A DNA stretch of 61,817 nucleotides from a virus: positions 1 through 61,817 of IMG/VR virus record IMGVR_UViG_3300046007_013304. The stretch is one strand, 5' to 3'. Shown one piece after another: positions 5,429-58,295 of this stretch. The notes beneath the pieces were generated by a model that was given only the letters and a program-made list of their open reading frames with translations, was not told the origin of the DNA and searched no databases. The position numbers and the translations under genes were made by a program. How positions within the stretch are numbered: position 1 is the stretch's first letter; every line of letters starts with the position of its first letter.

Positions 5429-5429
5429 T

Positions 5430-12549: not shown

Positions 12550-12565
12550 GAACAGAGGTCTGTCC

Positions 12566-14056: not shown

Positions 14057-14395
14057 ATGCGTACAAATCAATTCAAAAGCCTACAACAAGCAGCACTTTC
14101 AGTCAGTGCTCCTCATCTCATGCCAATCAATGAAAATGTTCAGCATGTCGAATATATCGAAGAACAAGTTGCAGACATTCCAACAGAACTCGTTGAGTTT
14201 GTCGCAAATGTAATCGAAAGTGCAGAAGAAAGACTCAAAACAACTTTCACCGCACAAGAAATAAATGAAACCACAAAGTACATCGTTCAAAAGCTTCAAG
14301 TTGAAAATTTGATCGAAAGCATTGAAAACCAAGTCGGCTTCGAGCTCAATGAAGCTGAAGTTGATTATGTTTTTAATACTCTCCAAAATCTTTGA
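14057..14395 (+). CDS. Small helical protein sharing a prohead core module
   Basis: 112 residues, preceded by CAGGAG. Residues 44-80 (ELVEFVANVIESAEERL and on) match residues 56-92 of the acidic prohead core protein encoded at 44994 (DLVDYINNVISEAEERL and on). Both include the string FT.QEI.E. A possible protease site INE occurs at 24-26. The shared module and late promoter suggest a head-core or internal protein. The one-base overlap with the next gene indicates coupling. Confidence 0.65.
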   Translation: MRTNQFKSLQQAALSVSAPHLMPINENVQHVEYIEEQVADIPTELVEFVANVIESAEERLKTTFTAQEINETTKYIVQKLQVENLIESIENQVGFELNEAEVDYVFNTLQNL

Positions 14396-14904
14396 TGACA
14401 ACAAGACACGAAATAATCAGATCAACCGTTAACGGCATTCTTCAGGAGGCATTTGATAACCGACCTGGATTTTGGTCCGGGACATCTGATGCGTATAATG
14501 TAACCAGACAGGGTGGAAAATTTCCAAAAATTGAAAAACCAGACATGATGGAATTGGTCAAACAAGAAAATGAATTAATTAGTCTGTTGGGACAGAGATA
14601 TCCAAAAAATCATCCAAATCCTCGCTTACAAAAACAACCAATTTATCCTAAAGGATCAGATGGCCACAAACAAATAAAAAAGAAAATAGCAAAAATTAGA
14701 CTGGCTAGAAAAAATTTCTCTAAAATTAAAGCAGATTACGAAAGATATAAAACAGGGGTTGTTGCAGGCAAAGTTGTCGGAAGTTTAGTGAATTTTGGTT
14801 CTGCACTCGGTACTCCAATTGTAAGTAGGGCTGGACAAAGAGCTTTCGATTTAGCAGGTAGTGGAGATGCAGGAACAATGACAGGAAAGGGCTATCAGGT
14901 GTGA
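14395..14904 (+). CDS. Candidate packaged head protein, basic
   Basis: 169 residues from the ATG at 14395, which overlaps the previous stop (TGATG). The N-terminus RHEIIRSTVNGILQE matches that of the protein encoded at 5428 and ends in L-Q-E, a prohead-protease type site (residues 16-18). The rest is basic (KKKIAKIRLARKNFSKIKADYERYKTG), fitting a DNA-bound internal protein. No family is recognised for the main body. Confidence 0.6.
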   Translation: MTTRHEIIRSTVNGILQEAFDNRPGFWSGTSDAYNVTRQGGKFPKIEKPDMMELVKQENELISLLGQRYPKNHPNPRLQKQPIYPKGSDGHKQIKKKIAKIRLARKNFSKIKADYERYKTGVVAGKVVGSLVNFGSALGTPIVSRAGQRAFDLAGSGDAGTMTGKGYQV

Positions 14905-20597: not shown

Positions 20598-21119
20598 ATG
20601 AAAAAATTTAACCAATTAAAACAGCGTTTGATGGAATCAGAATACACTGAAGGCGGTGGTTTCAATGCGGCATATGATGGAACCACAAGTAGAAGCGTGG
20701 CTAGCGATTTTGGTGCTCACAGAATTGAAGATGCAACCCAAAGAAGCAGAATAAATGCCTTCCTGCAAGCTTTTTCACAGAAAGATTATCTTGACCCCAG
20801 AAGTGCAATCGCTCTGTTAAGAGCAAAATTGAATTTGATTGGTTTAGATTTTCAATTCAATAATAATGTGAACTTAATTCCAAATACCGTTATACGACTG
20901 CCGTTGACTCGTTTCGGTGGAACATTTGGCTTCAAGACCAGAAATGGTGTCGTAAATCATGGGATAGAAGATTCTTTTGAAAGAACTGATGGAATTTCAG
21001 AATTTAACAATGGGAAAGGACTTCAATTAATCGTAAATATCGGTCAAAATGGTGCAAATGGTCTCTTCAAATTTAACATTATGTTAGAAGAGACTACTGG
21101 AGATTCTACAGCGGAGTAA
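20598..21119 (+). CDS. Candidate head-processed structural protein
   Basis: 173 residues. The N-terminus MKKFNQLKQRLME ends in L-M-E (11-13), a possible prohead-protease site. The rest has a helical part (DATQRSRINAFLQAF) and a beta-rich C-terminal part with Gly/Asn (NIGQNGANGLFKF). It has its own late promoter and AGAGGA ribosome site, which suggests good late expression. Probably a virion protein; no family recognised. Confidence 0.65.
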   Translation: MKKFNQLKQRLMESEYTEGGGFNAAYDGTTSRSVASDFGAHRIEDATQRSRINAFLQAFSQKDYLDPRSAIALLRAKLNLIGLDFQFNNNVNLIPNTVIRLPLTRFGGTFGFKTRNGVVNHGIEDSFERTDGISEFNNGKGLQLIVNIGQNGANGLFKFNIMLEETTGDSTAE

Positions 21120-28220: not shown

Positions 28221-29390
28221 ATGTCATCCTGCTCCACAAGTTCAAATATTCAATCAACCATACTCACCCAGATCATAAGAGAAGAAAGTGACACAAAAAG
28301 AGTCGCTTTCAAGATATCAAGTGCAGATGCCGGAATTTCTTCGGGTGTAACCCTGGGTTCTGTCATACGATATGATGTAGGCACGGATCTTTACATGCCA
28401 TCAGACGCAAGAGATCCTTCGACAGCCGAAGTTGTAGGCATAGTCGAAAAAATAGAAAATGGCGTGTATACCGTAGTTGCAAATGGATTGATAACATATC
28501 CAAATATCAATTCCGTAATTAACGGTTACACTGGAAATTGTGCGGAGCTAGATCCAGCTACTGGTGGTGGAAGCGGTGGATCTGACATATTTTTCTTGAG
28601 CGACGGTTGTCCCGGAAAACTACAATTGATTGAGCCAACCACTCCGGGAAGAATAATAAAACCGGTCATGCAAAGAGTGAAGGTCGGTGCTTCTGGCTCT
28701 GTTCAATATAATGGCATCGTTTTGAATTATATTGGTTATGAAGTTTCCAGACTTGCATCATTGACATATGAGATAATAGGAAATCCCGGGGATGTCACAT
28801 TCACAAAAGAAAAGAATCCACCGGATGGATTTATAAATGTCACCAATCCACAAGTTTTAGATGTTGAAGATTATCCTGATCTTTATGATACATTTAAAAC
28901 TGATCATGGTGATTATGTTGAAAATGTGGTTTTGGATTCCCCCGGAAACATTACTTCATTAATTGATTCAGATATTGTTCAAAAGAATGGATCTGTCGTA
29001 GTATCAACCGGAAAGATAACCGGAACAGATCCTACCACAAATTCAATATTAATAATCAAAAAAACAGGACAACCAGAAACCGACACGACTAAAAATCTGT
29101 TTATCGGAAATATAAGATATGTCTCTACATCGGCATCTGTAAAATCATTTACTCTTCCTTCTGTCCCTGAAGAAACTATAAAATATGTTACTCCAACCGA
29201 AACAAAACAAGAAACTCTCACCCCATACATGAGAACCAAACCAAATGTGACTTCAGTTGCAATACCGGACACTCTGGAAATTGAGCAAATAAAATCAGAT
29301 AAGTTAATAACAAATGGTGTTGAAGTCGCCCCTAAATTACTGGATCTTGAATCAAGAATAGCATCAATTGAAAGGAAATTCGGGATCTAA
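28221..29390 (+). CDS. Fibre shaft-like structural protein
   Basis: 389 residues. The N-terminus MSSCSTSSNIQS is polar. The next 100 residues repeat the shaft pattern seen in the previous protein (AEVVGIVEKIENGVYTVVANG). A middle part has PDGFINVTNPQ, like lid domains of fibres. The end is a short coiled coil (LLDLESRIASIERKFG), often a trimerisation unit. It overlaps the next start by one base (TAATG). The role in adsorption is inferred. Confidence 0.65.
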   Translation: MSSCSTSSNIQSTILTQIIREESDTKRVAFKISSADAGISSGVTLGSVIRYDVGTDLYMPSDARDPSTAEVVGIVEKIENGVYTVVANGLITYPNINSVINGYTGNCAELDPATGGGSGGSDIFFLSDGCPGKLQLIEPTTPGRIIKPVMQRVKVGASGSVQYNGIVLNYIGYEVSRLASLTYEIIGNPGDVTFTKEKNPPDGFINVTNPQVLDVEDYPDLYDTFKTDHGDYVENVVLDSPGNITSLIDSDIVQKNGSVVVSTGKITGTDPTTNSILIIKKTGQPETDTTKNLFIGNIRYVSTSASVKSFTLPSVPEETIKYVTPTETKQETLTPYMRTKPNVTSVAIPDTLEIEQIKSDKLITNGVEVAPKLLDLESRIASIERKFGI

Positions 29391-30793
29391 TGGGTTCCAG
29401 TTTCTATCCATCATCGAAATATTCTTTTTCTTATGGCATACCCGGTCCCGTTGGATCAACAGGAGAAAGAGGACCAACAGGACCTACAGGATATGGTTCA
29501 ACTGGTCCTACAGGTTCATCAATAAGTTCAATGGGTTTATGTGGTGGAAAACTATTAACTACATTTGATACTGGTGCGACATACATCACTTCTGCAAATT
29601 TCAAGGGAAGTACAGGAAACACTGTTCTCATTGCAGGCATAACCGTAGGAAACGGTCTCTCAATATATGCAGGTGAGACCCGGACATTAAATTTCAGAAA
29701 AATAAGAGGAATTACATCTCTTTCGGGAAGAGCCGATTTTCAGGTTGGTTTATGTGGTGATAGCCTAGAGTTTTCTTACATTAATTTGAGCAGTGGATTT
29801 ACTTTGGGAATTACTGGATCCGAAACAGTTAACACTTTTATTGGTTATAGTGGATCGGCTGTAACTTCTATACAAAAATCAAGATATGGCGAATCATCAT
29901 CCATATCCACCAGAAATATATTTGAAAAAGCAAGAGGTCTTGGTTATTCAGGAGCAACTTCATCAACCGGAGTTTTGTGCAACTACATCACCGGTGGAAC
30001 ATTCAATTATATCGATTCAAAAGGAAGTTCTGCTTCCGCAGAATGTAAGATTGTTTATATAAATCCTGATTGTGTGTCGAAAAATTCAATCGATGTCGAA
30101 GTGAGAAACAAAGTTTTTGTTGCCGATATGAAAAACAATACAACATTGGTAGTGCTTGGTGAAACAGAAGATAAAAATTCTGCATCAGCAATCACAGTTG
30201 TTTTGATGAATCCCAGCAACGGTCCAACAGCATCGGCTCTCGGTCAAAAAAGATTCTCACTAACTTCCGCTACAGGTGATATAATGTGGCCATTTGGCGT
30301 TGAACCCTGTTTTTGTGGTCCTACTGGAACAAATGTCTATCATTTCTTCAATGTGGGTGGATATACTTGGTATGGCAGTGTCGCATGGATGAGTGACACA
30401 TCAGTATTCTTTGATTGTCAAAAATCCGTAATACAGGGAATCTCCGTTCCATTTGGTGCATGCTGCATTGCAGATGGAACTCCAGGAGGAACTTGTATTT
30501 ACGAGAGCATCACCGATTGCCTTAATAGGGGTGCAAGTGCCTTCTGGCATGCAGGTCTGACTTGTGGCTCTAATCCTTGCCAGAAGACAGGAGGATGCTG
30601 TATGAGCTTCACCGATGTCAAGGCAGAAAACAGCAGCCTCTGCCTAAATGGTATTACTTGTATAAATTGCATCTCTGGAATGGTGTACAATCCAAGAGGT
30701 AAAACATATAATGCTACAAGTTTTACATATCTTGGAAATGGAATAACCTGTTCATCCTCAAATTGTCCTGTAGGAGCCGAAAATGTCATCTAA
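29390..30793 (+). CDS. Collagen-like and Cys-rich fibre protein 1
   Basis: 467 residues. A collagen-like Gly-x-y stretch lies at about 18-43 (GIPGPVGSTGERGPTGPTG). A beta-rich middle follows. From residue 355 a Cys-rich repeat region begins (FGACCIADG, TDCLNRG, LTCGSNPC, GGCCMS), with cysteines spaced as in small disulfide-knotted repeats. It begins at a TAATG overlap and ends 11 bases inside the next gene of the same design. Probably a trimeric surface fibre with oxidised repeats. Confidence 0.75.
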   Translation: MGSSFYPSSKYSFSYGIPGPVGSTGERGPTGPTGYGSTGPTGSSISSMGLCGGKLLTTFDTGATYITSANFKGSTGNTVLIAGITVGNGLSIYAGETRTLNFRKIRGITSLSGRADFQVGLCGDSLEFSYINLSSGFTLGITGSETVNTFIGYSGSAVTSIQKSRYGESSSISTRNIFEKARGLGYSGATSSTGVLCNYITGGTFNYIDSKGSSASAECKIVYINPDCVSKNSIDVEVRNKVFVADMKNNTTLVVLGETEDKNSASAITVVLMNPSNGPTASALGQKRFSLTSATGDIMWPFGVEPCFCGPTGTNVYHFFNVGGYTWYGSVAWMSDTSVFFDCQKSVIQGISVPFGACCIADGTPGGTCIYESITDCLNRGASAFWHAGLTCGSNPCQKTGGCCMSFTDVKAENSSLCLNGITCINCISGMVYNPRGKTYNATSFTYLGNGITCSSSNCPVGAENVI

Positions 30794-32162
30794 AGGACTG
30801 AGTAGAGTAATATCAGTGATTATCGCCGTTACCGGAGGAGTCGGTCCAACTGGTCCCACTGGAGCAACGGGATTTACCGGAAACTTTGCGACTGGACCTC
30901 TTGGTCCTAGAGGCATAGGCATAATAGGAGCAACATACAATTCAATAATAGACGGCGTAACCTTTACTCTTTTTGATAAAACAACAATTGGAATAACAGG
31001 AATAAAAGGAAACACCGGCAATGCTTCAAGTGCGTCTCCTCCTGGTATAAGTTATGTTGGATCCGGTATAACTCCACTGGTTAATTCTACAGGCGTATCG
31101 GGGTATACTTTATTTTTTAGAGGAGTAACTTTCGCAGTTGGTCTTTCTGGATCTATATCCGCAAATACCATATTCATTCAAGAAAATACAGGATATACCG
31201 GGTCTTTTGATGAAAATAAACTTCTGTATGTAAAATACAGTCAGACCCAAAGCTTGTATTACCTCGATTCCGCAGACAAAACTGCGTACAAGAATATTTC
31301 GTATTCTGGAACAACTTATTCAGAATTGACAATAATTTCAAATGTCGGCAGGGATATTCTGGATTCAAACAATTTCAATTATTCAATTGGAACTAGTGCA
31401 AACGCATATCATACCGGATTGACGATGACTATAGATTCTGCTGTCTATGGAATAACTGGATTGTCATTTGAAGGCAATTCAAATGTATTGTATCCATATC
31501 TCAAGTACAGAGCATCTTATTTTGATTCCGCCGGATCTTCGGGTGCTACTTTTTCCACGATATCTTTTTTGGAGATAGGTCCCTACAACAAGACGATCAA
31601 ATTGACAGAGAAAATAGGCTCTTGTTGTTTTGAATGTGATTCTTGCAACGGTTATTCCGATGGAAGAAATTGCATAGATTATGTTTCAAAAACTTACTGT
31701 GATTCTGTTTCTGGAAGATGGAGCCTTGAAAATTGTTATACTAGACAAAGCACATATGATTGTTACTTACGCAGAGCATGCTGCGTCAACGGAAGATGCG
31801 TAAATGCGACAAGACTCAAGTGTCTTCAAATGAAGGGTTCTTTCTGTGAGTATAAAGTTTGTGGGGTGTCTTATAATTGTGATATACCCTGCATCGAACC
31901 GCAACCAGTTCTTGGACCCACAGTTTATTGTTGCTGCAAGGATGGAATAGGAACTGAATTGACCGATCCGGCATTGTGTGTAGGAAAAGCAATAATCGGA
32001 AATTGCGAAAGCGTGAATTGTCGATCGGTAGAAAATACCGGAGCATGTTGTTTGCAAAATGGATCTTGCGTTTATCTGACGAAAAACGAATGTGCATTCC
32101 TTGGTGGAGTTTATAAGGGTACTGGGGTAACATGTTCATCTACCACTTGTTGTACCCCCTAA
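30783..32162 (+). CDS. Collagen-like and Cys-rich fibre protein 2
   Basis: 459 residues, the same layout as its neighbours. A short hydrophobic N-terminus (VISVIIAVTGG) is followed by Gly-x-y repeats (GPTGPTGATGFTG) and a beta-rich middle. Cys-rich repeats start at residue 281, with units such as GACCLQNGSCVYLTKNECA and FLGGVYKGTGVTC. This unit (ACC, a G-x-C, an N-x-C, then GG and G-x-x-C) recurs across the cluster. Confidence 0.75.
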   Translation: MSSKGLSRVISVIIAVTGGVGPTGPTGATGFTGNFATGPLGPRGIGIIGATYNSIIDGVTFTLFDKTTIGITGIKGNTGNASSASPPGISYVGSGITPLVNSTGVSGYTLFFRGVTFAVGLSGSISANTIFIQENTGYTGSFDENKLLYVKYSQTQSLYYLDSADKTAYKNISYSGTTYSELTIISNVGRDILDSNNFNYSIGTSANAYHTGLTMTIDSAVYGITGLSFEGNSNVLYPYLKYRASYFDSAGSSGATFSTISFLEIGPYNKTIKLTEKIGSCCFECDSCNGYSDGRNCIDYVSKTYCDSVSGRWSLENCYTRQSTYDCYLRRACCVNGRCVNATRLKCLQMKGSFCEYKVCGVSYNCDIPCIEPQPVLGPTVYCCCKDGIGTELTDPALCVGKAIIGNCESVNCRSVENTGACCLQNGSCVYLTKNECAFLGGVYKGTGVTCSSTTCCTP

Positions 32163-32182
32163 CTACATAATTTGAGGCATAA

Positions 32183-33892
32183 ATGGGATCCAGTGCAATA
32201 AGAACAATCATAATAGGAACAACTGGTCCCACGGGTCCAATAGGGCCTGTGGGTCCAATCGGACCAACAGGAACCGGAACAGGATTTACCGGTCCTAAAG
32301 GAAAGACAGCAAATTATGTTTCAACAATCATTGCTGACCAGAATTTGATAAAACTTGTGTCAGGTGACAAGACATTCATACTATATGGAACTCAAGGTGC
32401 AACTGGATATACAGGCACAATTTTTGGAAACAATTACTCAGCAGGATTGTCATTTTTCTCGTCTGCATCTGGCTATACTTTGACTTTGAGGGGAATTTCT
32501 TTCATAGGAAATCTAAGAGCAGAAATCACCGGAGATTCCATACTGGTAACTCCGATTGATGTATCGTATGGTGTAACACTATCCGGCAATCAAACAGACT
32601 CGACGGTATTGTTCTCAAAAACAGATTCAGTGATAGATTCAACCAGAATCAAATATGGAAAAACATATGGAGAGTTTTCTTTCAGCAATGTCTCAGGAAT
32701 AACTCAAACATCATCACAAGTCTATGCAAATATACGAGGCAATGTAATAGATGTTCCATCTGGATCAAATGATCTTATTTTGGGATTGACTACAGGAGCG
32801 ATCTATAAGATCAATACACCACTTGGTCTTTCCGGATTTACTCTGGATTCTTCTCTTTACAATGATAATGAATTGTTATCTGTAACTTTCTTTGTAGAAG
32901 GAAATGGATTCTCACAATTCCCGACAAATGTTTATTTTGAAGATACACCGTATTCCTCAAATTTTGGTTGTGGCACAAACATCATGAACTTGATGACACC
33001 CAATAAAGGAAAATCGTGGTATGCCACCATAATAGAGCGTGGTTATGGTGCGACATTGTGTTCTGGATTTGACGGAGTTGGATCTTGTTGCTACTCTCAG
33101 GGAAAAACTCTAGTTTGTTCTGAGTATGTGACCGAAGACTGGTGTAAAAAAAACAATGGATCTTTTAATTTGTTCACTGCTTGCAGTTCTACATGCGGAG
33201 CCACTGCGATATGTTGTTCTAATGGACAGTGTGTCTCTGGTGTTTCTGAAAGTGAATGCGAATATTTTGGTGGCAAATATTATCTTGGTATTGCATGTGA
33301 TGGAATTGAATATACCTCCGATGATGACAACACAGTAAGACAATGTTACGATTCAACAAAACCAGTGACATCTTGCTGTACGGGAGTTACTTGCATTTCG
33401 GATGTTACCTTTAAAGTGTGTGAGGAATATTATGGCGGCATAGGATTTGTTGGAAATTGTTGCGACTGTGAATGCAAGGATGGCGTAAGAGTGGAAATTT
33501 CTGGTGCCTGCTGTGTGTCTGAAACAAAAACATGTCAGAATGTTACGCCAACAGAATGCTCTAAACTTGGTGGAATATTCTTCGGAAAGAATACAACATG
33601 TAATACCATTGACTGTGGATTTGATGTTCCCGTAACTCTTGGATCTTGCTGCTATCCAGATAAACCCTGTGTTGATAATATTGATGAAAAAAATTGTTTT
33701 GGAATTTTTTATCCAAATTCCACATGCGATGTATCCTGTGGAAAAATAAAGGAAAAAGAAATTCAAGAAACAGATCTTTCAAAAGATCAAATTGTTAATG
33801 TTGCTATAAATGATCAAAGATACGATATAATCTGTGGGGGAAATCCAGACCCATGTATAGAATTTAAAGATGATAATATAGAAGCCCTATAA
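32183..33892 (+). CDS. Collagen-like and Cys-rich fibre protein 3
   Basis: 569 residues, with GAGGCA before the ATG. The N-terminus (SSAIRTIIIGTTGPTGPIGP) is close to that of the previous protein, with collagen-like repeats up to about residue 45. A beta-rich middle follows, and from about residue 300 the longest Cys-rich region of the set, with five or so repeat units (GSCCYSQG, AICCSNGQC, GACCVSETKTC, GSCCYPDKPC). The C-terminus lacks cysteines. Gene duplication within the cluster is the simplest origin. Confidence 0.75.
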   Translation: MGSSAIRTIIIGTTGPTGPIGPVGPIGPTGTGTGFTGPKGKTANYVSTIIADQNLIKLVSGDKTFILYGTQGATGYTGTIFGNNYSAGLSFFSSASGYTLTLRGISFIGNLRAEITGDSILVTPIDVSYGVTLSGNQTDSTVLFSKTDSVIDSTRIKYGKTYGEFSFSNVSGITQTSSQVYANIRGNVIDVPSGSNDLILGLTTGAIYKINTPLGLSGFTLDSSLYNDNELLSVTFFVEGNGFSQFPTNVYFEDTPYSSNFGCGTNIMNLMTPNKGKSWYATIIERGYGATLCSGFDGVGSCCYSQGKTLVCSEYVTEDWCKKNNGSFNLFTACSSTCGATAICCSNGQCVSGVSESECEYFGGKYYLGIACDGIEYTSDDDNTVRQCYDSTKPVTSCCTGVTCISDVTFKVCEEYYGGIGFVGNCCDCECKDGVRVEISGACCVSETKTCQNVTPTECSKLGGIFFGKNTTCNTIDCGFDVPVTLGSCCYPDKPCVDNIDEKNCFGIFYPNSTCDVSCGKIKEKEIQETDLSKDQIVNVAINDQRYDIICGGNPDPCIEFKDDNIEAL

Positions 33893-42950: not shown

Positions 42951-44555
42951 ATGGCATTAGAAATTTGGGGCTTTACGATAGGCAGAAAACGCGCTGACGG
43001 CACTCAGGAAACTTCTCCGCCACAACCACAAGTAGTTCCTCCTGACAAGTATGACGGTGCTCATGTCATCGAAACAGGCGGTGTTCAAGGAACACTGGTT
43101 GACTTTTCCGGTGCTGTAAGAGACGAAAATGCACTCATACAGCAATACAGATCAATGTCAATTTATTCTGAAGTGGACAAGGCACTTGATGATATCGTAA
43201 ATGATGCCATCGTGCCCGGAAGCCAAAAGAGACCTGTAAGAATAAATTTGGACAATGTTCCATTGTCGGAACAAATAAAAACCAAGATTCAAAACGAATT
43301 TAACACTATTTTGACTCTGTTGGATTTCAACAACAGAGGATATGATATTTTTAGAAAATGGTATGTGGACAGCAAAATATATTATTATATTCAAATAGAC
43401 AATGACAATCCTCAAGCAGGGATTCAAGATCTAATTCCCATAGATCCTATAAAGATCAAAAAAGTCCGTAGAATAGAAAAAGAAAGAAAACGCCCAGATC
43501 CGAATGTAAATGTCGTTCTTCCGATCATCAAGAAAATGGAAGAATTTTATATCTATACTGATACTGAGAGAGAAGCACTCATACCAACCTCGACGGCTGG
43601 AATTAAGTTTTCTACCGATAGTGTTTGTTATGTTCACTCTGGAATAGTCGATTCATCGACAAGAAGAGTGGTTGGTTATCTTCAGAAGGCTATTCGCCCG
43701 CTCAACATGCTTCGCCAGATTGAAGATTCTGTTGTCATTTATCGTATTGCAAGAGCCCCAGAACGAAGAGTTTTTTATGTGGATGTCGGTAATTTGCCAA
43801 AGCAAAAAGCAGAGCAATATGTTCGTGACATCATGAACAGATATCGCAATAAGATCACATATGATTCATCCACTGGTCAAATCAGGGATGACAGAAATTT
43901 CCAATCCATGTTGGAAGACTTCTGGATGCCTCGCCGTGAGGGTGGTAGGGGAACTGAGATCAGTACACTGGATTCAGGTGCAAATCTTGGAGAAATGACG
44001 GATGTCGAATACTTCCAGAGAAAACTCTGGCAAGCATTGAATGTGCCCCTTTCCCGCATGTTGCCGGAAACCGGTTTCAATATGGGACGAGCAGCCGAGA
44101 TCACAAGAGATGAAGTAAAATTCTATAAGTTCATAGATAGACTTAGGAACAGATTTTCTGTTCTGTTTTCATCTCTCTTAAGAACACAACTCATTCTCAA
44201 GGGCGTGATCAGTGAGCAGGATTGGGAAGATATCAATCAAAATATCGCTTTCTTGTACAACAGGGACTCTTACTTCGATGAGTTGAAAGAAGCAGAGATT
44301 CTGAAAGAAAGAATGGATTTGTTGGCTACGGTCGCTCCGTTTGCAGGAAAATACTTCTCTGAAGAGTACATCAGAAAGAACTTCCTCAAGCAAGACGATC
44401 AGGACATCATAAGAATGAATGCCGAAATGGAGCAGGAGTTTGCGATTGAACAGGAAAGAATGATGCAACAGCAAATGATGCAACAACAATTGGCACCGGA
44501 AGGACAACCGCAGGGGCAGCAAGGACAAAACAAAAATGAACAAAAGGCTGGCTAA
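42951..44555 (+). CDS. 20: Portal protein gp20
   Basis: 534 residues (T4 gp20 is 524). Typical segments are QYRSMSIYSEVDKALDDIVNDAIV, RIARAPERRVFYVDVGNLPKQKAEQYV and the clip/crown part GRAAEITRDEVKFYKFIDRLRNRFS. The C-terminus is Gln-rich (QQQMMQQQLAPEGQPQGQQ). The dodecameric portal is the entry for DNA and the starting point of prohead assembly. It overlaps the next gene by 20 bases. Confidence 0.95.
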   Translation: MALEIWGFTIGRKRADGTQETSPPQPQVVPPDKYDGAHVIETGGVQGTLVDFSGAVRDENALIQQYRSMSIYSEVDKALDDIVNDAIVPGSQKRPVRINLDNVPLSEQIKTKIQNEFNTILTLLDFNNRGYDIFRKWYVDSKIYYYIQIDNDNPQAGIQDLIPIDPIKIKKVRRIEKERKRPDPNVNVVLPIIKKMEEFYIYTDTEREALIPTSTAGIKFSTDSVCYVHSGIVDSSTRRVVGYLQKAIRPLNMLRQIEDSVVIYRIARAPERRVFYVDVGNLPKQKAEQYVRDIMNRYRNKITYDSSTGQIRDDRNFQSMLEDFWMPRREGGRGTEISTLDSGANLGEMTDVEYFQRKLWQALNVPLSRMLPETGFNMGRAAEITRDEVKFYKFIDRLRNRFSVLFSSLLRTQLILKGVISEQDWEDINQNIAFLYNRDSYFDELKEAEILKERMDLLATVAPFAGKYFSEEYIRKNFLKQDDQDIIRMNAEMEQEFAIEQERMMQQQMMQQQLAPEGQPQGQQGQNKNEQKAG

Positions 44556-44997: not shown

Positions 44998-45515
44998 GTA
45001 GTTTAGATCTAATCAAATTCGCAGCAAACGAAAACCATGTTAAATTTCGTTCAGCATTGAACGAAATGCTTTATGCAAAACTTTCTTATGTGATTAAGGA
45101 ATCCACAATCGACATGATTTCTGAAGTCTTCAATGTTGAAAGATTGCAGGAATCTTCCGACCTTGTTGATTACATCAATAATGTCATTTCAGAAGCCGAA
45201 GAACGACTGGGAACTGAATTCACCGAACAAGAAATCAGCGAAAGCGTTTCTTATATCATCTCTCTTCTAGAAAAGAAAAAGGAAGAAGATGAAGACGAGG
45301 AAGATGAAGATAAGAAAAAGAGCAAGAAGAAAAAATCCCACAAGAAAAAATCAAAGAAAAAAGATGATGAGGATGAGGACGAAGACGAGGAAGATGAAGA
45401 CGAAAAGGACGAGGAAGAGGAAGAAGAGGAAGAAGAGGAAGATAAAGTCAAGAAGAAAAATGGTAAAATTTTTCACTTTGACATAAATTCTCACAACAAG
45501 GAAAAAGATAAATGA
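44994..45515 (+). CDS. Acidic/Lys-rich prohead core protein, gp67/gp68-like
   Basis: 173 residues. The N-terminal half (1-92) is helical, with a possible protease site LNE at 22-24 and the module DLVDYINNVISEAEERL shared with the protein at 14057. From residue 94 it consists almost only of Glu/Asp/Lys (EEDEDEEDEDKKKSKKKKS and on), like the highly charged core proteins of T4 that are degraded to peptides during maturation. ATGA overlap with the protease gene. Confidence 0.7.
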   Translation: MSSLDLIKFAANENHVKFRSALNEMLYAKLSYVIKESTIDMISEVFNVERLQESSDLVDYINNVISEAEERLGTEFTEQEISESVSYIISLLEKKKEEDEDEEDEDKKKSKKKKSHKKKSKKKDDEDEDEDEEDEDEKDEEEEEEEEEEDKVKKKNGKIFHFDINSHNKEKDK

Positions 45516-46171
45516 AACTAATCACAGAAATGAACGAGGACATTTCTTTCGTAGTCGAAGGAAATGAAAATGGAAAAAAGAAGTTTGCCATCGAAGGCGT
45601 TTTCATGCAATCCGATACCGTGAACAGAAACGGTAGAGTTTATCCTCGTACCATACTGGAAAACGAGGTAAATCGTTACAGCAAAAAATATGTCAATGAA
45701 AACAGAGCTCTTGGTGAATTAAACCATCCATCAGGACCCACTGTGAATCTTGACAAAGTTTCACATCTTATAACCAACCTGAGAATGGAAGGAAAAGATG
45801 TCATCGGTAAGGCTAAACTTCTGGAAACTCCATGTGGTCTAATTGCCCAAAATCTATTAGAGGCAGGGGTAAAATTAGGAGTTTCTTCCCGTGGCATGGG
45901 AAGTCTCAAGGAAAGCAGGGGTTATAAGGAAGTTCAAAAAGATTTTATGCTTTCAGCCGTGGATTTAGTGGCTGATCCATCCGCTCCAAATGCCTTTGTC
46001 AACGGCATAATGGAAGGAGTAGAATGGATTTGGGACAATGGAGTTCTAAAACAAGAAGTTGTCGAGAATTACAGACAAATTGTAAAAAGAGCCCCATCCA
46101 AAAAACTACAAGAAACTGCAGTAAATGTGTTTGAAGACTTTATGAGAAAACTCTCAAAAGGTAAAAAATAA
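45512..46171 (+). CDS. 21: Prohead maturation protease gp21
   Basis: 219 residues (T4 gp21 is 212). Catalytic segments of this herpes-protease-fold family are present: GELNHP (H72), GVSSRG (123-128, containing the catalytic Ser) and LVADPSAP (D155). It cuts scaffold, core, capsid and internal proteins after Glu in (I/L)-x-E sites, as known for T4. Several proteins in this window carry such sites near their N-termini. Confidence 0.95.
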   Translation: MKLITEMNEDISFVVEGNENGKKKFAIEGVFMQSDTVNRNGRVYPRTILENEVNRYSKKYVNENRALGELNHPSGPTVNLDKVSHLITNLRMEGKDVIGKAKLLETPCGLIAQNLLEAGVKLGVSSRGMGSLKESRGYKEVQKDFMLSAVDLVADPSAPNAFVNGIMEGVEWIWDNGVLKQEVVENYRQIVKRAPSKKLQETAVNVFEDFMRKLSKGKK

Positions 46172-46210: not shown

Positions 46211-47194
46211 ATGGATAAAATTGCACAACAAGATGTTATGGATGCCTCCGGTAGAGGAGACTCAGATTACTCAGGAAGAGGTTCAATGTTCATCAAACCA
46301 GTCGCTCAACCCGGGGTTGCTGGAATGAACATGGCTTCACTTGCACCAATGTCTCGCATGGGTCAACCAGCCGCCGCTGTTGGCCAAAATGCTCCACCTC
46401 CACAAGAGGGGGAAGAAGAAGGCGAAGAAGAATTCAAGAAGAAGAGAGCTGCTGCAGCTTATGCAACAGAAACTTTTGATTTTGATTCACTCTTCGATGG
46501 TGAAAGCCTCACCGAAGAATTCAAAGAAAAAGTAAGAGTTGTTTTTGAAGCAGCTGTCAATGAAAGAGTCAACAATATCGCTAACACTCTTGCTGAACAG
46601 GCAAGTGAAGCAGTTGAACAACAAGTTCAACAGATATCAGAAGGTCTTTCACAAAAACTAGATGATTATCTCAACTATGTCATTGAAGAATGGATGACCG
46701 AAAACAAACTCGCACTTGAAGAGGGCATTCGCATGGATATTGCTGAATCCTTCCTCAGTGGACTCAAGGAACTCTTTGAATCTCACTATGTCAGCGTCCC
46801 TGAAGGAAAGATTGACATTCTTGAAAGCGTCAATGACAATAATGAAACACTCGAAAAAGAACTGAACGAAAGAGTCAATGAAAATATTGCTCTTCGCAAA
46901 GCTCTTCTCGATCATCAATGCGGCATTGTTTTCCTTGAGGCAGCAAACGGTCTGACCGATGTTCAGATTGAAAAACTCGCTTCACTTTCACAAGGTCTGC
47001 AATATGAGAATGTTGCACAATATGCAGAAAAACTAAACATTCTCAAGGAAAGTTATTTCCGTCCAGCAGCACCGATGATGAGAGAAGCAGCTGAACTATT
47101 AGAAGAAACCACAGATAAACGAATCGTTAACACAAATGACACAATGGGGATCTATGCATCCGCCATCGCTCGTCAAGCTAAGAAACAAGTCTAA
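46211..47194 (+). CDS. 22: Prohead scaffold gp22
   Basis: 327 residues (T4 gp22 is 269). The N-terminal 75 residues are Gly/Met/Pro-rich, and the remainder is long helical coiled coil (FKEKVRVVFEAAVNERVNNIANTLAEQ), ending with the conserved part VNTNDTMGIYASAIARQAKK. It forms the inner core on which the capsid protein assembles and is later digested by gp21. Its place between gp21 and gp23 confirms the call. Confidence 0.9.
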   Translation: MDKIAQQDVMDASGRGDSDYSGRGSMFIKPVAQPGVAGMNMASLAPMSRMGQPAAAVGQNAPPPQEGEEEGEEEFKKKRAAAAYATETFDFDSLFDGESLTEEFKEKVRVVFEAAVNERVNNIANTLAEQASEAVEQQVQQISEGLSQKLDDYLNYVIEEWMTENKLALEEGIRMDIAESFLSGLKELFESHYVSVPEGKIDILESVNDNNETLEKELNERVNENIALRKALLDHQCGIVFLEAANGLTDVQIEKLASLSQGLQYENVAQYAEKLNILKESYFRPAAPMMREAAELLEETTDKRIVNTNDTMGIYASAIARQAKKQV

Positions 47195-47215: not shown

Positions 47216-48712
47216 ATGGACTTTTCATCAGAAACTACAGCTTATGATAATCTAGTTGAAAAGTGGGAGCCAGTGCTCAGTCACGATGCTCTTCCACGCA
47301 TCAACGATTACGATAGAAAGAGAACCACCGCAGTCCTTCTTGAAAATCAAGAAAAGGCAATGCGTGAACAGTACCTCGCAGAATACGGCAACGAAATGGG
47401 TGGAGCATTCATGAACCCCCAAGTCGGCACCCCGAACACCGCTCTCGCTGGTTACAGCCCCGTGCTCATCAGCCTCGTTCGTCGTGCAATGCCTAACCTA
47501 CTTGCTTACGATATCGCTGGCGTGCAGCCAATGACTGCTCCCACCGGTCTTATCTTTGCAATGCGTTCACGCTACGGCACCCAAGACCAATTCAAGGCAA
47601 CCAACGAAGGTGGTTCACCAAACGATATCCAAAATCGTCAAAAGAACGAAGCACTCTTCCAGTCTGCATATTCACCGTTCTCAGGTCGTGGTGGTACATT
47701 TGGCGACACTACCAAGGGTGGAACCTTTGGTGCAGCAGTGTTTGAGAAAGATAACCTCAGCATCAACGCTGTTCGTGATCTACCTTGGGATGAAGGTGGA
47801 TTCGGTATCGGTAAATCAGGAACCAACAACTGGGAAGCTTTCCGTGGTATGTTGACTTCTGAAGCCGAACAACTCGGCGGATCAGGAAAGCCAGCTTTCC
47901 AAGAAATGTCAATCACCATCGAAAGACTTGCAGTCGAAGCTCGTAGCCGTGCTTTGAAGGCAGAATACACAACTGAGCTCGCTCAGGACCTCAAGGCTGT
48001 TCACGGTCTCGATGCCGAAACCGAACTTGCTAACATTCTTTCACAAGAAATTCTCCACGAAATCAATCGTGAAGTTCTCTACACCATCTACCGTGTAGCA
48101 AAGCAAGGTGGCAACCAAGGCGACCTCAAGACCTCCGGTACTTACGATCTCGTCTTCGACTCAGACGGTCGTTGGTCAGCCGAACGCTTCCGTGGCCTCA
48201 TGTTCCAACTCGAAAGAGAAGCAAATGTGATCGCCAAGGAAACTCGTCGCGGTAAGGGTAACTTCGTTGTTTGCTCAAGCGATGTTGCTTCAGCCCTCGC
48301 AATGGGTGGCTACCTCAACATCAGCCCGGCACTCAATGTGAACCTCGAAGTCGATGACACCGGCAATATCTTTGCTGGCGTTCTCAACAACAAGTTCCGC
48401 GTCTTCATCGATCCCTATGCACCAACCGGCGTTAACTTCGCTCTCGTTGGCTACAAGGGTCAAGTGGCTTACGATGCAGGTATCTTCTACTGCCCGTATG
48501 TTCCTCTACAGATGTTCCGCTCAGTCGGTCAAGACACCTTCCAACCGAAGATTGGCTTCAAGACCCGCTACGGCATGGTCTCCAATCCGTTTGCTGAAGA
48601 TACCGCAACCACCAGTGTTGGTACTACTGCCAAGGGCAACCAATACTACCGTCTCTTGAAGATTGATAATCTTCACGGTATGGGTATCACTGGTGGTCTC
48701 CAGATCTCATGA
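47216..48712 (+). CDS. 23: Major capsid protein gp23
   Basis: 498 residues (T4 gp23 is 521). Characteristic strings are VRRAMPNLLAYDIAGVQPMTAPTGLIFAMRSRYG and the later ERFRGLMFQLEREANVIAKETRRGKGNFVVCSSDVASAL. A propeptide similar to that of T4 is present; the likely gp21 site is LAE at 54-56. The codons are markedly richer in C/G at the third position than in the neighbouring late genes, as expected for the most abundant protein. A strong terminator follows. Confidence 0.97.
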   Translation: MDFSSETTAYDNLVEKWEPVLSHDALPRINDYDRKRTTAVLLENQEKAMREQYLAEYGNEMGGAFMNPQVGTPNTALAGYSPVLISLVRRAMPNLLAYDIAGVQPMTAPTGLIFAMRSRYGTQDQFKATNEGGSPNDIQNRQKNEALFQSAYSPFSGRGGTFGDTTKGGTFGAAVFEKDNLSINAVRDLPWDEGGFGIGKSGTNNWEAFRGMLTSEAEQLGGSGKPAFQEMSITIERLAVEARSRALKAEYTTELAQDLKAVHGLDAETELANILSQEILHEINREVLYTIYRVAKQGGNQGDLKTSGTYDLVFDSDGRWSAERFRGLMFQLEREANVIAKETRRGKGNFVVCSSDVASALAMGGYLNISPALNVNLEVDDTGNIFAGVLNNKFRVFIDPYAPTGVNFALVGYKGQVAYDAGIFYCPYVPLQMFRSVGQDTFQPKIGFKTRYGMVSNPFAEDTATTSVGTTAKGNQYYRLLKIDNLHGMGITGGLQIS

Positions 48713-49783: not shown

Positions 49784-51313
49784 ATGGAACATGTGAGTAT
49801 AGAGGCGGTAGATTCCGTCTTCATTCGTATCAATGCCGAAAAATCGGTCATCAAGGAGATGAGCCAATTTTTTAGTTTTGAAGTGCCTAACCATAAATAT
49901 ATGCCCGCCTACAAAAATAGGGTGTGGAATGGTAGGATAAATCTTCTCAATACTCATAAAAATGTAATTTATCGTGGTCTTCTTGATTATGTAATAAAAT
50001 TTTGCAAAGATCGAAACTATTCATGCTCCCTGTTCGAAGAGTCGGAAACAATCCCACAAAGAGACCACATATGCAAGTTTTTAGAAGAATTCGTGCAGCC
50101 ACATATAAGAGACGAAAAAGCAAACATCCACGACTACCAAATGGATGCTATTTTTCACGGCATAAAAAGAAAAAGATGTCTGTTGCTCTCTCCGACTGGC
50201 TCGGGGAAAAGCATGATAATATATTGTTTAATGAGATATTATTTGGAGACATTGCCAAAAGACAAGAAAATCTTGATCATTGTTCCGACGACTGGATTGG
50301 TCCAGCAAATGATTTCAGACTTCGCAGAATACTCGAAGAATACCAAATGGAAAGCAGACAGGAATTGTCACGGCATTCATGCAGGCAAGAGCAAACAAAC
50401 CGCAAAAAGAGTGGTGATATCTACTTGGCAAAGCATCTTTCGAGAACACAAAGACTGGTTCGATCAGTTCTCCGCCGTCTTTGGAGACGAATGTCATCAA
50501 TATCGAAGCCAGTCATTGGTCGCATTGATGACGAAATTAAAAGATTGTCCCTATAGGATAGGAACCACCGGAACGCTAGATAGCGTTTATGTTCATAAAT
50601 TAATTATCGAAGGGCTCTTCGGTCCAGTCTATAAGGTAACTAGCACCAAAGATCTCATCGATAAAAACATCTTGTCTGAACTTAAGGTCGAGTGTCTTTC
50701 GATCAACCATTCCGACACAGATCGTGCTGCCCTCAAGAGGCGAACCTACCAGGAAGAAATTGAATGGATTGTCACGGACGAGAGAAGAAACAAGTTCATC
50801 GTGCAACTTGCCGAGAAACTGAAGGGGAATACACTCATTCTGTTCAATTATGTCGAAAAACAAGGCAAACCCCTTTTCAAGATGCTCGAAGGATCAAGTA
50901 AGAATATTTATTTCATTTACGGAAAGACAGAAACGGAGATGCGCGAGCAAATTCGAAAAATTGTTGACAAAGATGATAATTCCATAATGGTTGCGAGTTA
51001 TGGCACGACAAGCACAGGCATTAATATTCGAAACATTCACAACATTATCTTTGCCTCCCCATCCAAATCTGTTATTCGAGTTCTTCAATCTATAGGTAGA
51101 GGACTTCGAAAAAGCGAAACAAAACAAAATGTTGTGATTTATGATATTTCAGATGATCTTCGTTACAAAAAATATGACAACCATACTTATCGTCATCTGC
51201 AGGAAAGGCTTCGGATATATAATAAAGAACGATTCGTGCATAATTTAATATCAATAAATCTCCGGAAGGATGAGAATGGAAAAGAAAATAAATTACAAAA
51301 TAATGAAACTTAG
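49784..51313 (+). CDS. uvsW: DNA/RNA helicase UvsW
   Basis: 510 residues (T4 UvsW is 587). Superfamily 2 helicase motifs: motif I SPTGSGKS (136-143), motif II DECH (235-238), motif III GTTGTL and motif VI QSIGRGLRK. The N-terminal part (ANIHDYQMDAIFHG just before motif I) fits UvsW. It unwinds R-loops at origins and branches, which switches the phage from origin- to recombination-driven replication. No ribosome site precedes it. Confidence 0.92.
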   Translation: MEHVSIEAVDSVFIRINAEKSVIKEMSQFFSFEVPNHKYMPAYKNRVWNGRINLLNTHKNVIYRGLLDYVIKFCKDRNYSCSLFEESETIPQRDHICKFLEEFVQPHIRDEKANIHDYQMDAIFHGIKRKRCLLLSPTGSGKSMIIYCLMRYYLETLPKDKKILIIVPTTGLVQQMISDFAEYSKNTKWKADRNCHGIHAGKSKQTAKRVVISTWQSIFREHKDWFDQFSAVFGDECHQYRSQSLVALMTKLKDCPYRIGTTGTLDSVYVHKLIIEGLFGPVYKVTSTKDLIDKNILSELKVECLSINHSDTDRAALKRRTYQEEIEWIVTDERRNKFIVQLAEKLKGNTLILFNYVEKQGKPLFKMLEGSSKNIYFIYGKTETEMREQIRKIVDKDDNSIMVASYGTTSTGINIRNIHNIIFASPSKSVIRVLQSIGRGLRKSETKQNVVIYDISDDLRYKKYDNHTYRHLQERLRIYNKERFVHNLISINLRKDENGKENKLQNNET

Positions 51314-52010
51314 AAGTGGTGAAGAAATAATAGCACGAATCACCAATTCGACAAAGGAAAAATTGACTGTTGAGAGGCCAATGTGCTTCAGGTCAATACT
51401 CACACAGGATTTATATGGAACTCCAAAAGAAATTTTAATCATGAAAAATTGGATACCATTAAGTGTCGAAAACAAGATTGATATTCCCCAAGATCACATT
51501 GTCTCTTTTTTAAATCCTAATTTGGATGCAATATCATTATATGAACTTGAAAAAGAAAAAGAAGACACAAAACAAAAAACATCACAATTAAAAAAAGAAA
51601 TAACCGAAGATGAAGAATTCAAGCAAATGATGAAATATCTTTCAAATAATACTCAAAAACTTGATGATATGATGAAAGAAATTGAATCTCAGGATAAAGA
51701 AGAAAAAAAGAATAAAAAACCAGATAACGATGACATGATATTTATGAACATGATGTTCCCCCCAGAAATGTTGGTTGATCTCATAGAATCTGAAATAATA
51801 GATCCAGAAATTTTTGGCGAGATGTACAAGGACATAAAAAAACACAGCAGAAGAAAAAAACCACTTCCTCCTAATGCAAAAAAACAACCAAAAAAAGGCC
51901 AGTCTGAAGGAAATTCTGCAAAATTTACAGGCGATCAAAAAGACCACAAAGATTATGGAAATCGCTGGACAGATTGGAATCCTGATTTATCTTCCGAGGA
52001 GTATCAGTGA
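51276..52010 (+). CDS. Lsm-like conserved phage protein
   Basis: 244 residues from the ATG at 51276, with GGAAGG six bases upstream; it overlaps uvsW by 38 bases. The N-terminal 85 residues (IMKLRSGEEIIARITNSTKEKLTVERPMCF, then ILIMKNWIPLSVENKIDIPQDHIVSFL) have the Sm/Lsm (Hfq-like) beta-barrel pattern that I recall from other T4-like phages. A charged helical region and a basic, probably disordered C-terminus follow. RNA binding is plausible but not shown. Confidence 0.65.
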   Translation: MEKKINYKIMKLRSGEEIIARITNSTKEKLTVERPMCFRSILTQDLYGTPKEILIMKNWIPLSVENKIDIPQDHIVSFLNPNLDAISLYELEKEKEDTKQKTSQLKKEITEDEEFKQMMKYLSNNTQKLDDMMKEIESQDKEEKKNKKPDNDDMIFMNMMFPPEMLVDLIESEIIDPEIFGEMYKDIKKHSRRKKPLPPNAKKQPKKGQSEGNSAKFTGDQKDHKDYGNRWTDWNPDLSSEEYQ

Positions 52011-52013
52011 GCC

Positions 52014-52688
52014 ATGAAATCTTTTCGTGACTACATTTCGGAGGATATATTTTTAAGATCAGCCAAAAAAAGAACTGATGTAAGTCCCGGTCAAAATTTT
52101 TCTCCTTTTTATGCCAAATATCACACAATTTTAGATTCAGACAGATTACAAAAACATTATGATCAAATAAAATCTTTTCGTCACAGGGGAATGCAATTTA
52201 AATTGCTTTCTACTAGAGATGAGGATCTAAAGGAAAGAATGTTTATTATTGCTCATGTCGGAGAAGATAATAAATTAAGAGACATTGGCAGGGTTGGCGT
52301 TTTGGTGGGAAATAAAAAAGAACTCATAAATGATAGAGTTCAGACTCAGCTTGGAAGAAAACCAGAAGCTATAAGCCTGGAACCAGAGCTTCATGAAGAT
52401 TTTACAGGTAAGGGATTGATGTCCAGAGTCTATAAAATGATTGCAAAACACCACAAAGTTGATATTATATCAGACTTAGACCAGACCAAAGGGTCCAAAA
52501 AAATTTGGGATGAATTGGCTAAGACAGGCAGAGTAAGAGGTGTTCACACCAGAGGTGAAAGAGAACCTTTCTCTTATGATCCAAAAAATGAAGATCATGT
52601 CAACACAATCTATACTGATTTCAACCCAAGAGACAAGGAAATGCCGACCAGCAGAGGAAACAGTTATCTACTTCATTATACTCACTGA
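52014..52688 (+). CDS. Candidate packaged GNAT-like protein with T4-type targeting peptide
   Basis: 224 residues. The first ten, MKSFRDYISE, are strikingly like the MKTYQEFIAE capsid-targeting peptide of T4 internal proteins, including the final x-S/A-E cleavage site for gp21. After a short basic stretch, the segment ELHEDFTGKGLMSRVYKMIAKHHKVDIISDLDQTKGSKKIWDELAKTG looks like the acetyl-CoA-binding and C-terminal part of a GNAT acetyltransferase. I infer an enzyme placed in the head and injected with DNA. The assignment to GNAT is by pattern only. Confidence 0.65.
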   Translation: MKSFRDYISEDIFLRSAKKRTDVSPGQNFSPFYAKYHTILDSDRLQKHYDQIKSFRHRGMQFKLLSTRDEDLKERMFIIAHVGEDNKLRDIGRVGVLVGNKKELINDRVQTQLGRKPEAISLEPELHEDFTGKGLMSRVYKMIAKHHKVDIISDLDQTKGSKKIWDELAKTGRVRGVHTRGEREPFSYDPKNEDHVNTIYTDFNPRDKEMPTSRGNSYLLHYTH

Positions 52689-52797
52689 TCTCAAAAGAAC
52701 ACTTAACCCAATGGTGCTTGAATCAGGACAAGGTAATTATAAAAGACCTCAAAAAACTTGTCAAGAACAAAGTTGAAGAAAAAACAAGATAGTCCTC

Positions 52798-52826
52798 TTG
52801 CTTTTATTCATTGTTTGTGATATAAT
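52798..52826 (+). promoter_or_regulatory. sigma70-like promoter for gp55, leaderless arrangement
   Basis: TTGCTT (52798-52803), a 17-base spacer and a perfect TATAAT (52821-52826), then six bases to the ATG at 52833. The 144-base gap upstream holds nothing else I can support. Confidence 0.65.
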
Positions 52827-52832
52827 GGTGAC

Positions 52833-53363
52833 ATGCCAAAGAAAACAAACCATTACATAGACAACAAAGAATTCTTCAAACAAATGGTGGCGTGGAAGAA
52901 GACAGTTGATGCCGCAGAAGATAGCGGCGATCCACGACCACCTGTGACTAATTATATTGGAACTTGTATACTCAATATAGCAGAGCATCTTTCTCAAAAA
53001 CCCAACTTTGCAAATTATCCCTACAGGGAAGAGATGGTGGGAGATGGAATAGAAAACTGCTTGATGTATGCTCACAACTTCAATCCAAGAAAATCAAAGA
53101 ATCCATTTTCTTATTTCACGCAAATCATATACTTTGCCTTTTTAAGACGAATAGAAAAAGAAAAGAAGCAGGCATATGTGAAATTGAAAGCCACAGAGAT
53201 GATGGATGATGGAACAATGCATCGTTGGTTTCGGGAAAATTATCTTGAAAATGACAGAAAAGATTCCGAAAATCCTCTTCTGGATGTGTTCCAATTGAAC
53301 GAATTGGACATGAAGAGATTGTCGGGTGAAAAGAAAAAGAAGAAAAAGAAGAAAAAAAAATGA
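52833..53363 (+). CDS. 55: Late-promoter sigma factor gp55
   Basis: 176 residues (T4 gp55 is 185). It starts KKTNHYIDNKEFFKQMVAWKKTV and has the sigma-region-2-like part YREEMVGDGIENCLMYAHNFNPRKSKNPFSYFTQIIYFAFLRRIEKEKKQAY, which binds the RNA polymerase and reads the TATAAATA box. The C-terminus ends in ten lysines (167-176), in place of the sliding-clamp-binding end of T4 gp55. It is expressed from its own early-type promoter and overlaps gp47 by four bases. Confidence 0.9.
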   Translation: MPKKTNHYIDNKEFFKQMVAWKKTVDAAEDSGDPRPPVTNYIGTCILNIAEHLSQKPNFANYPYREEMVGDGIENCLMYAHNFNPRKSKNPFSYFTQIIYFAFLRRIEKEKKQAYVKLKATEMMDDGTMHRWFRENYLENDRKDSENPLLDVFQLNELDMKRLSGEKKKKKKKKKK

Positions 53364-56141: not shown

Positions 56142-58295
56142 ATGGCTATTTCGGATATAAACTTTCTAGGCAAATGGAGAGCCTACGATGTCAATGGTGT
56201 ACAGATCACCTATAATCCAGGTGATCTTGTAATCTATACATCTTCGCCCGGAACAGAATCAACATATCTTGCAGTTCAAAGAACGGATAGAACCCCATTG
56301 TCAGGTGTGAATGGTGGTTGGGTTGGGTTTGGCTCAGCAGGAACAACAACAATAATTGGAGCGTCGGGTGGTACTGGTGGAAGAATCAAATTAACATATT
56401 CTCCCTCATCATCACCTCCAGTTTCCCCGGAAGTTGCAGATCAATGGTTCAATAGCACAACCGGAAGATTTTACATTTATGTTGCAGATGAAAATTCATC
56501 ACAATGGATTGAAATTGCATCTATAGGACCAAGGGGAGAAACTGGAGATATAGGACCAACAGGTCCTGCGGGACCAACAGGCAATACCGGTGATCGCGGA
56601 ATCACTGGAAATCCAAACACAATATTTTATCAAAGTAGTCCTCCTAGTGGGATGACCGCCGGAGACCAATGGTTTCATAGCGGAACTGGTAGGTATTATT
56701 TCTATTTGATTGACGAGAATTCTGGTCAATGGGTGGAAATGGGTTCGATAAATTATGACACTAGAGGAATTTGTGGTTCTGGTGGAAGCGGAGGTGTTGG
56801 ACCCACGGGACCTACAGGACCTACTGGAGATCCGGGCATACAGGGAAATACAGGATCAACAGGTAGTGGTGTAACAGGATTTACCGTATCGGGAGATAAC
56901 CTTTATTTCTGGTACATGGATGCTCTTGGTCAAACATTCGGTGAACTTCAAAATGCTGGATTAGTCAAAGGACCACAAGGAAATCCTGGCATACAAGGAA
57001 ACACAGGTCCAACTGGACCTACAGGAAATACAGGGGCAACTGGAACCGGCTATCAAAATGCAACAATAAGAGACAATAAACTTTATATTGAAGTTGTATA
57101 CTCGAATGGAACAACAGCGGAAACAGAAGTAGGGTATATCGGACCAACAGGTCCTTTGTTTATATTTGATACGGATTTGACCGCTGCATTCGGTGAGGGT
57201 AAATTTTTTGGTAAATATGAAAATGGAGATACAATTCCTGCCGCCGGTAAGAGTGCCGTAGAAGTAATAAAGATGGCATTATTCGATGTATTACCAGTTA
57301 CGGTGGATGTATCCTCATCCACCACAATTGCATTCAATCAAACTGCAATTGCAAATGTATTGGGATTAACATATACAATTAATACTTTTGGTGCCACTGT
57401 AGCCGGAGTTACATTGGAATGGAAACGAACAAGTGAATCCTTGTGGACGGGATTGACAAATAATGCATCAATAAGAGGATTCACCCATAATACAATTGAT
57501 GGTTTATATTCAACAGATGGGTTTCAATATCGTTATTATGTGGTTGATTCATTAGGAGGAACAGGTTCAGACACAGTTACAATAACTCCGGCTGCTTATA
57601 TTGCACCTACAGCAATAATAACACAAACAGCAACTATTACATCTCCACAATCAGTTACAAGAAGAGAAAAAGGCAATACTCTAACAAATATATCAGCAAC
57701 GATCACAAGAAATAGTCCAAATGTAAATCTTACTGGATTTACATTTGAATTCAGTACAAACAACTCGACTTATATTTCGACCGGAATCACGGGAATTACG
57801 AGTGGAACTACAGGATCATGGAGTACCGGTGTTACTGCACATGCAGCTAGTGGAGCGACAGCAAGTATCAGATATAGAATAAGAGTAAGAGATGATTATC
57901 AAGATTCTCTGGGTAGTTCAGTAATCGGCGGAACAGCCTCTTTGATCAATCTCTATAATATAATATTCTATGGTGCTACCGGAACAGTTCCGTCTACAGG
58001 ATCAAGTATAAGAGGGCTTGAAGGAAAAACATTCACAGACAGTTCTTTAACTTTTAATTTGAATACCGGTATAACACATATACACTTTGTGTTTGCTACA
58101 CCAGACCCATCTACAATATCTCAAGTATTGGATCTAGAAACTGCTAGCTCGAATATAACAGCACAATATATTTTATCGACAGGAGTAACTTTAATTCCAA
58201 ATTATATCGGAACAGATACAGAATATAATGTATATGTAATGTCAAACTCTGTACCATACGGCGAAAATCACAGACATCAAATAACCAGAACATAA
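56142..58295 (+). CDS. Collagen-like tail fibre protein A (inserted in replication cluster)
   Basis: 717 residues. An N-terminal domain of about 80 residues ([27 protein letters not shown]) resembles carbohydrate-binding or chain-adaptor modules. Two copies of a DQWF-x-S-x-T-G-R unit alternate with Gly-x-y repeats ([13 protein letters not shown]), and one [17 protein letters not shown] unit follows. The C-terminal 350 residues are Ser/Thr-rich beta domains. It is a likely surface fibre, unlike anything in the same position in T4. It is followed after one base by a second fibre gene. Confidence 0.75.
56868..56972 (+). repeat. 35-residue fibre unit, copy in protein A
   Basis: Encodes [17 protein letters not shown] and on, the same unit as the three copies at 58825, 58978 and 59176, differing mostly at third codon positions. 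Confidence 0.7.

Follow-up and report, generated by a model that had tools for sequence, protein, structure and literature searches.

The gene at positions 52014 to 52688 of the window (the whole 61,817-nt stretch of DNA analysed here, with 73 ORFs) quite probably encodes an accessory internal head protein of the T4 type. To judge from its sequence, an N-terminal tag would direct the product into the head, where it would be cleaved behind Glu10, and the next host would receive it by ejection. The window belongs to a T4-like phage, a virus of bacteria; gp20, gp21, a gp22-type scaffold and gp23 were all found with strong Pfam scores (Table 1). The predicted mature form of the 52014 protein, residues 11-224, has a mass of 25.0 kDa and a pI of 9.4, i.e. 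it is basic.

Table 1. Window coordinates of the 52014 gene, its parts, its neighbours and other T4-type genes.
Feature	Position	Strand	Remarks
Whole gene	52014..52688	+	224-aa precursor
Capsid-targeting propeptide MKSFRDYISE	52014..52043	+	Predicted gp21 cut after Glu10; T4 match, homologue conservation
Shine-Dalgarno-like GAGGAG	51996..52001	+	From sequence
Flexible linker, residues 11-28	52044..52097	+	pLDDT below 50; poorly conserved, indels relative to L012 homologue
GNAT-like folded domain, residues 42-200	52137..52613	+	AlphaFold2 model and Foldseek
Motif A-like loop and helix HEDFTGKGLMSRVYKMIAKHH, residues 127-147	52392..52454	+	Sequence and model; phrog_3307 match at 126-175
Motif B-like segment IISDLDQTKGSKKIWDELAK, residues 151-170	52464..52523	+	S[DG]xxQTxGxxxxWxxL, kept in distant family
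Upstream neighbour, conserved hypothetical protein	51270..52010	+	Slot of S-CREM2 Sm-like gene; upstream insertion edge
gp55 leader, conserved	52689..52832	+	Downstream insertion edge; aligned with relatives lacking the gene
gp55 late sigma factor, downstream neighbour	52833..53363	+	
gp20 portal	42951..44555	+	Pfam E 7.9e-172
gp21-type prohead protease (Peptidase_S77, PF03420)	45512..46171	+	Pfam E 1.9e-38
gp22-type scaffold (T4_CASP, PF25623)	46211..47194	+	Pfam E 1.5e-62; expected tag docking partner
gp23 major capsid protein	47216..48712	+	Pfam E 1e-134

The sequence-only reading had likened the first ten residues of the protein to the T4 peptide MKTYQEFIAE. Translation of NC_000866 gives this N-terminus for both ipII and ipIII. 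In the T4 capsid-targeting sequence (CTS), residues 4 and 7 determine capsid targeting and residues 8 and 10 determine processing (PMC9026906). The 52014 protein has F, Y, I and E at these four positions, all matched. The gp21 cleavage motif [IL]xE is present at residues 8-10 as I8 S9 E10, and I8 and E10 are also found in the homologue of contig L012. The pattern [FYL]xx[FYW][ILFMV]xE matched the N-terminus of one of the 73 window ORFs, the 52014 protein, compared with about 0.01 expected from the internal rate of the same pattern within the window's own proteins. With the four positions matched and so low a chance expectation, the proposed resemblance to a ten-residue T4-type tag was confirmed.

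Some other N-termini of the window were also recorded. A 379-aa ORF at 12542-13705 lies just downstream of a T4 late-promoter box, TATAAATA, and starts MERFETFISRN, in which positions 4 and 7 are aromatic and position 10 is Arg. Its product may be an internal protein in the style of IPI, cut further along the chain. The ORF at 20598-21119, starting MKKFNQLKQRLMESEYTE, is a weaker targeting-peptide candidate. Four hypothetical proteins encoded at 5039-7606 and 14392-14904 have an N-terminus of another kind in common, in which a short hydrophobic helix ends with Glu (ILQEA, ILNEL, HLFEQ and HLLES); this is a possible second propeptide class.

The 52014 gene is flanked by the conserved hypothetical gene that follows uvsW and by gp55. 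Among about 80 gp55 loci, a 52014-type gene was found in this slot only in contigs near-identical to the window and in the L012/L013 lineage; at the remaining loci the slot was empty or held a different gene. Contigs L008, L010 and L011, whose gp55 is 88-90% identical to that of the window, have no such gene, and in them the same upstream gene is joined to the same gp55 leader; L012, with a gp55 of 79% identity, has one. Since the gene is missing from the closer gp55 relatives and the conserved flanks are joined there, it is an accessory cassette. Elsewhere in the window, several long ORFs at 29390-33892 and 56142-58295 contain collagen-like GPTGPTG repeats and probably encode tail fibre proteins.

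The L012 homologue is 57% identical to the 52014 protein and starts MKSFFQYITE. Positions 1-4, 7, 8 and 10 of the tag are identical in the two proteins, and the next 25 residues contain indels. In an alignment of ten family members (22-57% identity to the query), M1, S3, F4, Y7 and E10 were invariant together with only five other columns, a conservation that is inflated because several members had been retrieved via the tag itself. The search was therefore repeated with the C-terminal domain only, and all three lineages recovered (window, L012 and L124) were tagged. Distant relatives have the motif B-like signature of Table 1 in common. Members lacking the tag also exist, in L202 and as a lysozyme fusion in L213, so the GNAT-like domain and the tag are separable. 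The fusion, at L145:5383-6834 (the same as L213:565-2016), joins the GNAT-like domain to a phage lysozyme and has a start without the tag. No whole-protein relative was found among 50,697 annotated phages, none was found in bacterial and archaeal genomes, and a sequence search of the PDB gave no match.

We also searched for the tag among the 2.9 million viral contigs of IMG/VR. The pattern MK[ST]Fxx[FY]I[ST]ED matched 75 stretches, and a control pattern in which these residues were shuffled had no match. All 47 usable non-redundant matches lay at most 28 codons from an ORF start, compared with 51% of the other MK codon pairs of the same loci (p about 1e-14). A looser tag pattern gave 88 non-redundant tagged proteins, 86 of which were covered by Pfam assignment. 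Most of these had no family and the rest were spread over unrelated families, the largest groups being DUF6321 (7), DUF6267 (6) and a zeta-toxin-like/AAA_33 kinase (2). S-AdoMet lyase, SpoT-like HD_4, Nudix, cytidylyltransferase-like, lysozyme and 5'-nucleotidase were represented by one tagged protein each. The tagged proteins are basic: without their tags they have a median pI of 9.5, compared with 6.1 in the other ORFs (p 4e-21), a control set that includes some ORFs which may not be genes; the 52014 protein, at 9.4, is of the same kind. Basic internal proteins with CTS-like sequences have been described for T4-related phages (PMC9026906). A gp21-type protease was encoded in six of six tagged contigs of at least 90 kb, a count that covers tagged contigs only, and in shorter tagged contigs the structural region was often missing altogether.

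Several tagged genes were found in tandem. Five contiguous genes at L164:2489-5541 and five at L153:2112-4720 all start MKSFxxYIxE or nearly so, with unrelated bodies behind the tags, a zeta-toxin-like kinase among them. At L092:2301-8206 there are six consecutive tagged genes, the last of which encodes a nucleotidyltransferase fused to a phage lysozyme. A SpoT-like HD_4 hydrolase at L093:1226-1783 is tagged MKTFKKFISED, and a Nudix hydrolase at L099:1-537 is tagged MKSFKQFITE. The T4 late promoter box was not enriched upstream of tagged genes (7/87 compared with 29/467), and thus offers no promoter-based argument. HTVC008M, a marine relative examined as a second positive case, showed no clear tag. 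That T-even ip genes can be found by their leader was already known (PMC12373910). The literature covered, which includes few subscription journals or preprints, yielded no description of proteins with a CTS tag from cyanophages or from viral metagenomes. On balance we lean towards the view that in aquatic T4-like phages the CTS is a portable tag on tandem unrelated enzymes (GNAT-like, zeta-toxin-like kinase, SpoT-like HD hydrolase, Nudix, SAM lyase, NMNAT-like and nucleotidyltransferase-lysozyme), such that the injected proteome could be read from the genomes of uncultured phages.

Virion proteomes of two cyanophages bear on this view. For S-CREM2, a related phage, 52 virion proteins were identified by mass spectrometry, with coordinates (PMC10665884). 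The pattern ^.{3}[FYL]..[FYW][ILFMV].E matched 6 of the 219 annotated S-CREM2 proteins (0.045 expected from the internal rate). Five of these belong to the virion set (Fisher p 0.003): a SAM hydrolase, an APH-like kinase, an NMNAT-like cytidylyltransferase, gp13 and gp136. The remaining match, an ORF of 55 residues, is outside the virion list. With a looser pattern, five of eight were in virions (p 0.02). The strict pattern was written after the S-CREM2 N-termini had been seen, so this test is not fully blind; its letter classes are close to the earlier T4 ones. The authors of that study note that such proteins could be co-purified (PMC10665884), and virion mass spectrometry neither distinguishes head from tail nor excludes co-purification. 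S-SZBM1 served as a held-out test and gave a mixed result (PMC9146016). Its sole virion enzyme, a cytidylyltransferase, starts MRFRQFIIEA, which is one residue shorter than the strict pattern. The two small proteins that match the strict pattern, MKSFKSFLSE and MKTFKQYITE, were both undetected (0/2) in what is a shallow proteome of 30 proteins. S-SCSM1 also has a gene for a virion NMNAT. In S-CREM2, the Cas9-like gp12 (OR473000.1 7704-10313), also listed in virions, has a CTS-like LRFASFMAEA near residues 17-26, which may be an offset tag.

The body of the 52014 protein probably has a GNAT fold, according to structure prediction. A first AlphaFold model, built from 4 sequences with a pLDDT of 54, was too poor alone and was replaced by an AlphaFold2 model from 17 relatives (mean pLDDT 72, pTM 0.70). 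In this model a short N-terminal helix (residues 4-9) and a disordered stretch (11-28) precede the folded domain, which has four consecutive strands, a helix after the loop G132-K133-G134 and then more strands and helices, an arrangement like that of the GNAT core. The sequence-only reading had noted a GNAT-like pattern and looked to a structure-based search as a check. Foldseek against the PDB returned GNAT-fold proteins for nearly all of its top 32 matches, although the best E-value was only 0.038. The matches include the ICL2 C-terminal domain, NAA60, MEC-17, a Bacteroides GNAT, AtaT, KacT and dopamine N-acetyltransferase. We take the ICL2 match to be its C-terminal GNAT-like acetyl-CoA-binding domain, which is presumably regulatory. 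AtaT and KacT are toxin-like GNATs; because other GNATs score equally well, these two matches were not counted in favour of a role in tRNA acetylation.

Sequence profiles did not bear out the GNAT pattern. The Pfam search of the 52014 protein matched no family, and the PHROG match, phrog_3307 (E 1.6e-4), is a family of unknown function. For the relative in L117, the two best Pfam matches, Acetyltransf_1 (E 0.036) and Acetyltransf_10, were both below threshold. Compared with the GNAT motif Q/RxxGxG/A, the CoA loop is DFTGKG in the 52014 protein, EHAGSG in L012 and EHTGKG in L124; DFTGKG is without the usual Q or R, and the loop is more degenerate in distant members. We give acetyl transfer activity an even chance. 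The modification of host proteins, which had also been suggested, is speculative: RNA or a small molecule would be just as plausible a substrate, as would no substrate at all, and the domain may do no more than bind CoA, or may serve as an inhibitor.

Such an inhibitor is the main rival for the role of the body. The protein would be packaged likewise, and its GNAT-like body would be no enzyme but a decoy, either CoA-binding or fold-only, with a protein of host defence as the target of its inhibition. We hold this to be a substantial possibility, at somewhat below even chance. The group of best structural neighbours includes ICL2, with its presumably regulatory domain, and members throughout the family have a degenerate CoA loop; against this, the window's own clade retains a GKG/GSG loop and there are clear enzymes among the tagged proteins elsewhere. 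T4 IP1-IP3, which have only the leader in common, each act specifically to inhibit type IV restriction enzymes (PMC12373910), and this also fits a decoy.

Two further rivals concern the tag. The N-terminal motif might be a docking peptide for the tail or baseplate, or for another phage or host protein, rather than a head-targeting propeptide. The S-CREM2 proteomics (PMC10665884) does not localise proteins inside the virion, and several tagged contigs have no gp21 or portal gene in the available fragment, but the pattern of T4 determinants is exact and ends in IxE, the cargo is basic and the S77 protease is there in every tagged contig of at least 90 kb, which makes docking elsewhere unlikely. 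It is less likely still that the protein is an ordinary cytoplasmic accessory protein whose N-terminus resembles the tag by chance or simply through shared ancestry. In favour of this, there is a single such protein in the window and an MK start is frequent among phage proteins; against it stand a chance expectation of about 0.01, the silence of the scrambled motif and a tag common to unrelated folds. The head-targeting reading of the tag is well supported: the determinants match, the homologues keep the tag, the starts of genes for unrelated proteins bear it too, the window has genes for gp21 and the scaffold, and virions of a related phage contain tagged proteins.

If the 52014 protein is an internal head protein, Phe4 and Tyr7 would attach it to the core of the assembling prohead, and cleavage by gp21 would follow after Glu10, at the IxE motif, as in T4. 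By the same analogy, the basic 25-kDa GNAT-fold protein would stay with the DNA in the head and be ejected with the genome into the next host. Early in infection it might block host defence or alter host physiology, perhaps by acetyl transfer. Given the inhibition of type IV restriction enzymes by IP1-IP3, counter-defence is a reasonable first guess. T4 Alt is a virion ADP-ribosyltransferase with a short N-terminal propeptide that gp21 cuts after ITE-6 (PMC5694885), and a packaged enzyme is therefore also possible.

If aquatic T4-like phages in general mark their cargo with this tag, a simple pattern at the N-terminus would predict the pre-loaded proteins that act in the first minutes of infection. 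It would also give a reason why NMNAT-like proteins and a SAM hydrolase occur in cyanophage virions, and the GNAT-like family would be a recurrent injected effector. T4 internal proteins were discovered singly in coliphages, and their known role is the inhibition of restriction enzymes.

The 52014 protein is similar in its predicted topology to the GNATs NAA60, MEC-17, AtaT, KacT and the GNAT-like domain of ICL2, with a GxG-like loop that leads into the main helix; unlike theirs, its loop is without the usual Q/R, and it has no significant sequence match to them. The virion enzymes of S-CREM2 and S-SZBM1 (SAM hydrolase, APH-like kinase and NMNAT-like) have CTS-like starts (MKDFDSFLEE, VKRFDAFLTE, MKNFSSFLTE and MRFRQFIIEA), as the 52014 protein does, and bodies unrelated to it; in the parts covered of the corresponding publications (PMC10665884, PMC9146016) we found no mention of the tag. 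Like T4 Alt, an enzyme packaged in the head, the 52014 protein is predicted to have a short N-terminal propeptide, but Alt has a different enzyme fold and an additional C-terminal cut. Unlike T4 IPI, IPII and IPIII, which are small inhibitors, the 52014 protein has a larger, GNAT-like body, and its packaging is a prediction. Like them, it has a capsid-targeting sequence of ten residues in which positions 4 and 7 are aromatic and an IxE cleavage motif follows, and it belongs with basic, accessory proteins whose non-homologous bodies stand behind a common leader.
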